Positions 20,799 to 25,544 of a DNA stretch of 29,128 bases are shown here, piece after piece. The notes under the pieces are model-generated. The model was not told the origin of the DNA. It made no database searches and worked only from the letters and a program-made list of their open reading frames with translations. Source of the stretch: a virus. Within the stretch, counting starts at the first letter, position 1; each line of letters starts with the position of its first letter. The DNA is taken from the IMG/VR virus record IMGVR_UViG_3300043427_000500, positions 1 through 29,128 of that record; one strand, 5' to 3'. Position numbers and translations under genes: made by a program.

Positions 20799-20951
20799 AT
20801 GGATGCCATAGAAATCATTGCAAGAATCTGGCCTATTTTGGTCGGTTTTGTAATGCTCGTGGTTGTTTTGGCTAAAGCTGACAACAGAATTGCTGTGCTT
20901 GAAGAAAAAGTCAAAACCTTGTTTGATTTGATAAATCGTAAAAATGGCTAG
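20799..20951 (+). CDS. Small single-helix membrane protein (50 aa), lysis accessory candidate
   Basis: 50 aa, ATG at 20799. The segment IWPILVGFVMLVVVLA is a strong membrane helix, followed by a short heptad-like coil (NRIAVLEEKVKTLFDLI) and basic RKNG. No Shine-Dalgarno is obvious; it starts seven bases after the phosphoesterase stop and ends overlapping the endolysin start (20944) by 8 bases, so translation is probably coupled. The one-helix-plus-coil shape and the place just ahead of endolysin fit a holin, antiholin or a lysis regulator, but it could be another small membrane protein. Confidence 0.55.
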   Translation: MDAIEIIARIWPILVGFVMLVVVLAKADNRIAVLEEKVKTLFDLINRKNG

Positions 20952-21444
20952 CTTTGAATCTGCTTTCGACAAGATGATGGAGGACGAGGGGGGTTACGTT
21001 CTCCATGAGGTTAAAGGAGACCGAGGCGGTCAGACCTACGCGGGTATTGCTCGCAAGATGCACCCCAAATGGGAGGGCTGGCAGCATATTGACTACCAGG
21101 AAACACCTCCCACACAGTTAGTCCGAGACTTTTACAAAGAAAACTTTTGGGACAAGATCAAGGGCGACGATTTAACGCATGACGTTATAGCCTCGTCCAT
21201 CTTTAACTTTGCTGTTAACGCTGGCGTTCCCGTGTCCATCAAACTTGCCCAGATATGCGTCAAAACGGCCCCAGATGGCGTTATTGGCCCTAAGACCATA
21301 TCAGCACTCAACCAAGCTAATCCTGAGCTCTTCGTGGCTTATTTCGCGCTAGCAAAACTCGCTCGTTATCGTGACATTGTGACGCGAGATAGAAGTCAGA
21401 TGAAGTTCCTCCTTGGTTGGATCAACAGGACGCTCAAGTTATGA
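20944..21444 (+). CDS. Endolysin, GH108-type N-acetylmuramidase with C-terminal PG-binding part
   Basis: 166 aa. EDEGGYVLHEVKGDRGGQTY (about 13-32) is the signature of glycoside hydrolase family 108: the catalytic Glu is E15 in the EGGY motif, and D26 with the GGQTYAGI loop follows. FWDKIKGDDL and IFNFAVNAGVPVSIKLAQ are the family helices, and PDGVIGPKTISALNQANPEL (about 116-135) is a peptidoglycan-binding-like end. The length is usual for this family. There is no signal peptide, so it needs a holin. It overlaps the small membrane protein upstream and the 3-TM holin downstream (ATGA). Confidence 0.9.
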   Translation: MASFESAFDKMMEDEGGYVLHEVKGDRGGQTYAGIARKMHPKWEGWQHIDYQETPPTQLVRDFYKENFWDKIKGDDLTHDVIASSIFNFAVNAGVPVSIKLAQICVKTAPDGVIGPKTISALNQANPELFVAYFALAKLARYRDIVTRDRSQMKFLLGWINRTLKL

Positions 21445-24243: not shown

Positions 24244-24542
24244 TTTCGTTTGTAGTAGTAAGCCCAGGCTTGCCTGTAGAGTTTTTCTTTCGTAACCAAC
24301 TTGCGAGCCTCGAGTGCGCGAATCATCTTCAAGGCATTTTGTGGTGTGCAACCAAACTTGTTTGCAAGATCGTTGAGTGACATCCAGTCATCGAGCGCGG
24401 TTAGATAAGCCTTTTGTGTCGGTGTCAGCGGTTTAGACTTGTTAAGCATCATCCGGCCAAACTTCTCCACCGACTTCAGGAACTCATCTTGGTGTGAGAT
24501 GAGAACCCCTGATTGCTTGGCAATAGAGAGAATCTGACTCAT
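24240..24542 (-). CDS. Winged-helix DNA-binding protein
   Basis: 100 aa. The C-terminal part is a winged helix: LTPTQKAYLTALDDWMSLND, LANKFGCTPQNALKMIRALE (HTH), then wing RKLVTKEKLYRQAWAYYYKR with strong basic/aromatic character. The N-terminal helices are coiled (EFLKSVEKFGRMML). It is likely a regulator of the operon or a replication/recombination accessory protein, acting by binding DNA. It overlaps the Erf-type gene by ATGA and has GGAG upstream. Confidence 0.7.
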   Translation of the reverse strand: MSQILSIAKQSGVLISHQDEFLKSVEKFGRMMLNKSKPLTPTQKAYLTALDDWMSLNDLANKFGCTPQNALKMIRALEARKLVTKEKLYRQAWAYYYKRK

Positions 24543-25153
24543 TTAATCTCCGTGAGTTCTTTCTTGCGCTGTTCCTTAGCTGCGTCGATTTGTTTAATAG
24601 CCTCAGGATCGTTCTTAAACACCTTGTACGCGCCTGTGAATACTGCCTTCAAGTCATCAACTGTTTTGGCCTCTGAGAGCGTTTTTATGTGGTCGTCTAT
24701 AGATGGTTTCTTTTCCGAATTTGCTTTTACCTCATGAGTCGTTGCGTCAGCATCGTTATCTCCTTCAGTTGGTATGCAAAAGGCTTGAAAGGCCGCATAC
24801 TTGTAAGCCGCTGACATAGCTTTGTTAGTCGCTTTATCGCCAGAATCCATTGCTTCGCCAAATGTCTTAACTGTGTGTTTAGTTCCGTCATGCGATGAAA
24901 CGAAATCAAACTCAGCCTCAACCACGACATAAAAAAGTGACGATCCGCTTTTGCCCATGCGCTCAGACACTTCTCGGCGCATAACCCGAGGCAGGATAAC
25001 CAGACCGTGTTTAGAAATGATCGGAGCTAACGCGTTGTAAACGTCATCAATCCCGCGGAAGTTGTAGGATTGCTGAGCATTCTTGCGGTCTTTAGAGATT
25101 CCATGCTGGCAAAGGTCAGCCGATACTTTTGCGATTAAGTTGTAGACGTTCAT
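24539..25153 (-). CDS. erf: Erf-family single-strand annealing protein
   Basis: 204 aa, started at ATG 25153, which has a GGAG site seven bases upstream; a longer frame from 25219 exists but has no such site. The N-terminal domain matches the Erf (essential recombination function) family of P22: YNFRGIDDVYNALAPIISKH (residues ~30-50), VEAEFDFVSSHDGTKHTVKT and the characteristic GEAMDSGDKATNKAMSAAYK (~97-116). The C-terminal ~60 residues are a charged linker and a helix (KNDPEAIKQIDAAKEQRKK). It anneals complementary single strands in recombination-based replication or repair, paired with the exonuclease in the same operon. Confidence 0.88.
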   Translation of the reverse strand: MNVYNLIAKVSADLCQHGISKDRKNAQQSYNFRGIDDVYNALAPIISKHGLVILPRVMRREVSERMGKSGSSLFYVVVEAEFDFVSSHDGTKHTVKTFGEAMDSGDKATNKAMSAAYKYAAFQAFCIPTEGDNDADATTHEVKANSEKKPSIDDHIKTLSEAKTVDDLKAVFTGAYKVFKNDPEAIKQIDAAKEQRKKELTEIK

Positions 25154-25164
25154 GTTTGGCTCCG

Positions 25165-25263
25165 TTACTTTATGAACAGGAAGAGCAGTGTTCCGTAGCA
25201 AATCCCCAATAGCGCGCATAGTGCCCAGTCACTCCTCGTTATCTTGTACTTGGTCAAGTTCAT
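25165..25263 (-). CDS. 32-aa single-helix membrane microprotein
   Basis: 32 aa, too short for usual ORF calling. It starts with a basic stretch (MNLTKYKITRSDW) followed by a strong membrane helix (ALCALLGICYGTLLFLFIK), the classic positive-inside shape. AGGAG lies one base before ATG 25263, too close, but is spaced seven bases from an in-frame TTG at 25257, which would give 30 aa (MTKYKITRSDW...). It overlaps the end of the 44-aa gene by 35 bases and ends 11 bases before the Erf-type start. Coding status is inferred from composition and the site; the function is unknown. Confidence 0.55.
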   Translation of the reverse strand: MNLTKYKITRSDWALCALLGICYGTLLFLFIK

Positions 25264-25363
25264 ACTCCTGTTGTTCCAACTGTTGTTGTAGCTCATAGTC
25301 TCTTTCCCTTTCTCTGTCATATTCGTAAAGTTGTCTGTCTAACCACCAGTCGTAGTCAGTCAT
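25229..25363 (-). CDS. 44-aa acidic coiled-coil microprotein
   Basis: 44 aa (MTDYDWWLDRQLYEYDRERE, then RDYELQQQLEQQEYELDQVQ and DNEE). It is extremely charged, rich in Tyr, Gln and Glu, and looks like one helix or coil. A GAGG site lies six bases upstream of the ATG. Its start overlaps the stop of the 62-aa gene by 8 bases, in the style of this operon. Small acidic proteins with an M-T-D-Y-x-W-W start are common in phages. Function is unknown; such an acidic helix could act as an inhibitor or a DNA mimic, which is only a speculation. Confidence 0.65.
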   Translation of the reverse strand: MTDYDWWLDRQLYEYDRERERDYELQQQLEQQEYELDQVQDNEE

Positions 25364-25544
25364 TTGTTACCTCGACTTCTAAATTAAGGTTTTCAATACC
25401 GTGCTTGAGTGGAACCATCGCAAGAAACGCTTCGCCTTGCAACGTGCCAACAAACACTGGATCAGAGAACTGCGAGAAACTTGTTTTCTCAATCCTGCTT
25501 AAAACTTCTATTGCTTTGACTATCTGGCTAACCGTGATTGACAT
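25356..25544 (-). CDS. First gene of the leftward operon, small protein of unknown function
   Basis: 62 aa, started at ATG 25544, which has an excellent AAGGAG at seven bases; an upstream start would run into the divergent region. Sequence: MSITVSQIVKAIEVLSRIEK, then SFSQFSDPVFVGTLQGEAFLAMV, then a short acidic tail. It is alpha/beta with no motif. Being first in the operon it is likely to be expressed early. No function can be assigned. Confidence 0.65.
   Translation of the reverse strand: MSITVSQIVKAIEVLSRIEKTSFSQFSDPVFVGTLQGEAFLAMVPLKHGIENLNLEVEVTND

Follow-up and report, generated by a model that had tools for sequence, protein, structure and literature searches.

Two small overlapping genes, encoding an acidic protein of 44 residues and a hydrophobic protein with a single membrane helix, lie next to the single-strand annealing gene of a phage recombination operon and are, as judged from the divergence of related sequences, real protein genes under purifying selection. 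Together they are best explained as a small accessory cassette of that operon; this reading, taken with the roles suggested for the two proteins below, is the one we favor, with slightly less than even confidence. Retention of the pair with two different annealing cores opens to experiment the question of whether microproteins of this sort target the annealing protein or factors shared in the host. The pair also shows that genes of 25–44 aa, which fall under the usual annotation cut-offs, may form the least variable element of a phage recombination operon.

RESULTS

Organization of the operon

The window, by which we mean the whole stretch of DNA analyzed, comprises the entire virus record of 29,128 bases. 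Judged by the portal protein, its closest named relative is Methylophilales phage Venkman (54%). Open reading frames together with Pfam and PHROGs profile searches delineated a minus-strand operon of recombination genes from about 25,544 to 22,645, with the order P0004 (62 aa), the acidic 44-aa gene, the membrane frame and ERF (PF04404), followed by genes for a winged-helix-like protein, an unassigned protein, NinB, a YbcO/HNH nuclease and a YqaJ exonuclease. An earlier note, made from the DNA letters alone, had placed the pair at the head of this operon, which was nearly right, the acidic and membrane genes being its second and third genes. A search for a sigma-70 promoter near the start of the operon found none. 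The stop codon of P0004 is at 25356–25358, the TAA stop of the membrane frame at 25165–25167 is followed after 11 nt by the ERF start, and 75 nt separate the acidic stop from the ERF start; this chain of four genes, from P0004 to the annealing protein, is best explained as being translated as an overlapping or abutting series. Profile searches gave no family match for P0004. That gene was present in just five other contigs, all of them also among the loci of the window's annealing-gene family, and its position is occupied in most relatives, including close ones, by a different small gene of the MKIVLTQEQ... type.

Table 1. Features of the small-gene region and its surroundings in the window
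Feature	Position	Strand	Basis or remark
P0004, 62 aa, at the head of the window's operon	25356..25544	-	8-nt overlap with the acidic gene
Shine-Dalgarno site of the acidic gene, GAGG	25370..25373	-	6 nt ahead of the ATG; duplex -7.5 kcal/mol
Acidic helix microprotein, 44 aa	25229..25363 (stop codon counted)	-	Sequence; frame-specific selection
Weak Shine-Dalgarno sequence for the 43-aa start, GGGAAAGAG	25300..25308	-	Inside the acidic gene; duplex -5.5 kcal/mol (window)
Membrane microprotein, 43 aa, MSYNNSWNNRSMNLTKYKITRSDWALCALLGICYGTLLFLFIK	25165..25296 (stop codon counted)	-	Start kept in 67/67 relatives; selection
Dual-frame overlap of acidic and membrane genes, 68 nt	25229..25296	-	Both frames constrained
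Shine-Dalgarno site of ERF, GGAG	25160..25163	-	Within the 11-nt gap after the membrane-gene stop; duplex -5.8 kcal/mol
ERF single-strand annealing protein, 204 aa	24539..25153	-	PF04404, E 4.8e-23; phrog_155

The acidic frame was found as the earlier note had described it, with its GAGG site and its 8-base overlap, the partner in that overlap being P0004 (Table 1). Its product contains 16 D/E and 4 K/R residues, giving a net charge of -12 and a calculated pI of 4.05, and was modeled by AlphaFold2 without an alignment as a single helix spanning residues 3–42 (pLDDT 92). The membrane protein has a polar and basic N-terminus followed by one membrane helix with an invariant GxxxG, which AlphaFold2 modeled as a disordered N-terminus and a helix at residues 21–42 (pLDDT about 86–91). 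With a hydropathy of 2.2–2.4 across 17 residues, basic residues ahead of the helix and K or R as the last residue, it agrees with the description of a single-span protein, having one hydrophobic helix of about 19–22 residues and a basic flank.

Frame-specific selection in both genes

Relatives were gathered from IMG/VR using annealing-protein, acidic and membrane queries. Parsimony was then used to assign substitutions to a tree, and the outcome was set against a null in which the same base changes were placed at random. The main run used 66 distinct related sequences, a single gapped sequence that shortened the overlap part being left out. Where only the acidic gene is encoded, synonymous events in its frame numbered 83 against 41.6 expected (P<0.001), and in the 61 nt encoding only the membrane protein the corresponding numbers in the membrane frame were 79 against 45.4 (P<0.001), the other frames showing nothing in either part. 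Within the overlap both frames were constrained, with 38 synonymous events versus 26.0 expected in the acidic frame (P<0.001) and 40 versus 30.9 in the membrane frame (P=0.014), while stop-creating changes were depleted in each (0 versus 7.7 expected for the acidic frame and 1 versus 6.8 for the membrane frame). The third frame of the overlap was free, having 11 synonymous events against 23 expected and 14 stop-creating changes. A prior run with 47 sequences agreed with these results save for the membrane frame in the overlap, which was not significant (P=0.22).

The placement of events on a tree presumes that recombination is rare, an assumption that the present loci do not strictly satisfy. 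Since the null is built from those same events, the event counts should be mainly affected and the frame preference less so. In both genes the pattern of substitutions is specific to the reading frame and exceeds chance, and the frame-specific substitutions strongly support the claim of the earlier note that these are two real and commonly overlooked small genes; conservation of both frames in relatives, which it had named as a way of checking that claim, was analyzed here and found. Little may depend on the first 22 residues of the membrane protein, since they are only weakly constrained (P=0.014) and are missing from one lineage of relatives (lineage B, below). On account of the amino-acid-level constraint we also rejected a regulatory short-peptide reading, in which the product would have no function.

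We also considered a start of ERF at an in-frame ATG located 66 nt upstream, reading through the membrane gene. It was rejected as a conserved extension; although no stop codon interrupts the frame and a Shine-Dalgarno-like site is present, synonymous events numbered 32 versus 29.5 expected (P=0.33), showing no constraint on the amino acids. In the window (25154–25219) and in related loci, the annealing start always follows the membrane stop in the same phase, with gaps of 2, 5, 8 or 11 nt, and the resulting in-phase open extension of about 20–22 codons, with its Shine-Dalgarno-like site and without amino-acid constraint, may be due to chance.

The start of the membrane gene

The start codon of the 43-aa (41-aa) form, at window position 25294–25296, was found in all 67 distinct relatives, as ATG in 59 and GTG in 8, and the residues that the acidic frame encodes over this codon vary among them. 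A start at TTG 25255–25257, giving a 30-aa product, was found in 65 of the 67, whereas the start of a 32-aa form (ATG 25261–25263) was found in only 18 (ATG in 3, TTG in 15). Mean anti-Shine-Dalgarno pairing among the relatives was -7.6 kcal/mol for the 43-aa start, -6.1 for the 30-aa start and -4.0 for the 32-aa start. In the window alone, however, the TTG pairs better than the 43-aa start (-6.9 versus -5.5 kcal/mol), and a shorter, minor product may therefore be made as well. On balance a length of 43 residues is preferred over one of 32 for the membrane protein, and the overlap between the two genes is consequently 68 nt. The hydrophobic frame overlapping the acidic one had thus been correctly noticed before, while its proposed 32-aa or TTG start is not favored.

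The pair moves as a unit while the annealing core is exchanged

Comparison of related loci showed that the acidic and membrane genes, together about 210 nt, behave as a mobile cassette that moves as a unit. When the window was aligned with one relative, L114, the 150 nt that immediately precede the annealing gene were identical and the two were 83–93% alike up to the acidic start, whereas similarity was about 30–43% just outside the pair on both sides and returned to 89–91% on the far side of P0004 as well as over the annealing-gene tail. The annealing protein of L114 is SSAP_Sak (PF06378) and not ERF, and SSAP_Sak is also what most relatives carry beside the pair. Despite the common tail, the ERF and SSAP_Sak cores belong to different Pfam families. 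With the pair and the tail constant and the cores different, the annealing core has therefore been swapped between them, within the gene. The tail comprises the 58 C-terminal residues of ERF (147–204; window 24539–24715) and is 95% identical to that of the L114 SSAP_Sak. The gene upstream of the pair has also been exchanged while the pair stayed intact, and the membrane frame was found at the same spacing in 75 of 76 Sak loci, the lone exception having just 68 nt of upstream sequence.

In lineage B (L004–L016 and others), a 25-aa membrane form with the consensus MRKIEWxAxxALGMFYGxLxFLFVR precedes ERF in the absence of an acidic gene, and the tail of the annealing protein differs from that of the window. 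Pairwise DNA identity between lineage B contigs is 0.57 up to the ATG of the membrane gene and 0.96 from there on, and the variable columns within that gene fall at nine third, four first and one second codon positions. Between the membrane proteins of lineages A and B, W, LG, YG, L and LF are invariant, whereby GxxxG is kept. Intermediates carrying both small genes exist, before ERF in L109 and before Sak in L110. A hairpin, GGGGCTTCGGCCCC, recurs between small genes that lie upstream of the module, directly ahead of the membrane gene in L004, L006 and L016 and at about 1049–1063 in L110, and is possibly a recombination point or a terminator.

Searches for homologs

Neither protein gave a credible family or sequence match in Pfam, PHROGs, NCBIfam, PADLOC or the PDB, and in these same collections the membrane protein had no family match to known membrane toxins or holins. 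Cultured phages searched with tblastn gave no match for either small protein, and none of 84,980 bacterial and archaeal genomes contained the membrane-protein pattern. The acidic query matched troponin T, as low-complexity acidic helices match many things. The pair is, in our verdict, real and widespread in environmental phages.

DISCUSSION

Possible roles of the two proteins

Because the same pair serves two annealing cores, ERF and Sak, its targets are probably not the core itself. More likely targets would be shared ones, for instance the exonuclease or SSB-like partners, a factor of the host, or the C-terminal tail that is conserved between the cores. By analogy, the acidic helix is perhaps an Arf/gp5.9-like DNA mimic, helical and strongly negative, that would block or retune a host end-processing nuclease of the RecBCD/AddAB type, if the host carries one, or that would aid the loading of the annealing protein; we consider this an appealing possibility that falls short of being probable, and the suggested nuclease inhibition is a hypothesis drawn from composition, position and the predicted helix. 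For the membrane protein, which would be made together with the recombinase, we propose more tentatively that it is inserted with its N-terminus inside, self-associates through GxxxG and serves host takeover or counter-defense by acting on an inner-membrane protein of the host. According to the positive-inside rule, basic residues flanking a helix face the cytoplasm, and the basic residues preceding the helix here thus suggest a cytoplasmic N-terminus. The earlier note took both proteins for likely early effectors; the position in the recombination operon would fit early expression of the pair, and since it adjoins a single-strand annealing protein, a recombination-linked role is suggested rather than generic toxicity.

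The two proteins could also be parts of one counter-defense system, in which the acidic helix would disable RecBCD/AddAB and the membrane helix would neutralize an abortive-infection membrane effector triggered thereby. A precedent is retron Ec48, which responds to gp5.9 or Gam, and such a system, if it exists, would explain why both genes travel with any annealing protein, but we regard it as a long shot.

Alternative explanations

It is conceivable, if on the whole unlikely, that both proteins are instead partners of the recombination machinery, with the membrane helix anchoring annealing or replication complexes and the acidic helix binding the tail of the annealing protein or an SSB-like partner. 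This would agree with a pair and a tail that stay constant around an exchangeable core, the ERF and Sak tails being nearly identical, and with the unrelated membrane microproteins that adjoin ERF elsewhere (L022/L027/L028, L034, Pan3 L176 and L279), but these recurrences are few in number and partly based on hydropathy. Lineage B, moreover, has the membrane gene together with another tail and no acidic gene, so that the three elements are not always linked, and we know of no annealing protein that is membrane-anchored. A quite improbable alternative, suggested by the size and hydrophobicity of the membrane protein, is a membrane-active toxin-like peptide (Hok/TisB-like) for host shutdown, or a holin-like accessory protein. 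The membrane gene is, however, closely linked to annealing genes and not to lysis genes, the candidate lysis region of the window being located elsewhere (a glycosidase-like 166-aa frame at 20944–21444 with adjoining hydrophobic frames), and an Rfam search of the region gave no match, including no antisense RNA.

That the frames would serve mainly for translation, as a short overlapping chain feeding ribosomes to the annealing gene with peptides that matter little, is very doubtful: the overlaps of 8 and 68 nt, the gap of 2–11 nt and the Shine-Dalgarno sites inside preceding genes would all be expected from it, whereas coupling needs none of the amino-acid constraint in both frames, the positions invariant between lineages A and B or the conserved hydrophobic helix. 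The idea that the acidic frame is the sole gene and the membrane frame an accident of the overlap could draw on the modest P=0.014 of the membrane frame in the overlap alone. It should be regarded as already refuted, unless the alignments are wrong, and we give it hardly any credence, as the 61-nt membrane-only part is strongly constrained in the membrane frame alone (79 versus 45.4, P<0.001), the membrane start is present in every relative and lineage B carries this gene without the acidic one. We thus retain the accessory cassette as the preferred reading, in which an independent, selected acidic microprotein is found beside annealing proteins and kept with two different annealing cores, next to a membrane partner that is described in no library searched here.

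Comparison with known systems

Small acidic and membrane proteins beside ERF are also seen elsewhere. Acidic microproteins preceded ERF in 16 of 80 ERF lineages versus 15 of 449 control genes, and single-helix membrane microproteins in 5 of 80 versus 7 of 446 (10 of 449 before three ERF genes were dropped from these controls), all being rough counts, as they depend on hydropathy-based calls and on a simple start finder and as the lineages are related. A second acidic family, from Enterobacterales phages and prophages (alignment A6; L174, L175, L177, L262, L270, L273, L274, L277, L281 and L287), has about 52–57 aa, overlaps the ERF start and carries a motif near A-x-A-D-x-x-T-x-x-Q; the one member scanned had no PHROGs match. 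This family has no profile similarity to the acidic protein studied here and is not tied to a membrane gene. The membrane microproteins adjoining ERF elsewhere are similar in having 25–30 aa and one helix and in ending at or overlapping the ERF start. They include a 27–28-aa protein in L022, L027 and L028 (MNKxKDxTLAVFIGISLAWVLVYGWAL type) and an unannotated 26-aa membrane-helix frame, MIAFTTILFAAALIAVGWSADREVGQ, in Pseudanabaena phage Pan3 (ON968454; L176:1415-1492), both having an ATGA overlap with ERF, but their sequences differ from that of the membrane protein here and no acidic partner was seen.

T7 gp5.9 has been shown to block RecBCD as an acidic coiled coil that mimics DNA (PMC9836394), and the acidic protein here is similarly small, very acidic and modeled as one long helix. 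With the profile of the gp5.9 family (PHROG 9014), 1 of 10 members matched, at a chance-level E of 0.16. Arf of phage P22, likewise discussed as a small acidic possible DNA mimic, had a mode of action that was described as unclear in a 2022 study (PMC9836394), and at the arf position phage HK620 has an orphan gene unrelated to Arf (PMC5928155). The acidic protein gave no BLASTP alignment with Arf, an hhalign probability of 0.3% and no match to phrog_2445, which Arf itself as a control matched at 5e-32, and the homology to the conserved LAAERxN...WxEFxG of the Arf family (PHROG 2445) was not found in it. With no profile match to either, the pair is kept out of the Arf and gp5.9 families, and the comparison with both covers position and character only.

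In P22, c3, kil and arf are mutually overlapping upstream of erf, and the acidic 47-aa product of arf bears the annotation of Erf cofactor. Whereas arf overlaps erf itself, is preceded by kil and c3 and has no membrane gene at its position, the acidic gene here does not overlap ERF and the membrane gene intervenes. The two systems nevertheless share a chain of short overlapping genes before the annealing gene, and the acidic proteins are closely alike in character, Arf having 47 aa, a net charge of -11 and a pI of 4.05 compared with 44 aa, -12 and 4.05 here. P22 arf is the nearest analog of the acidic gene.
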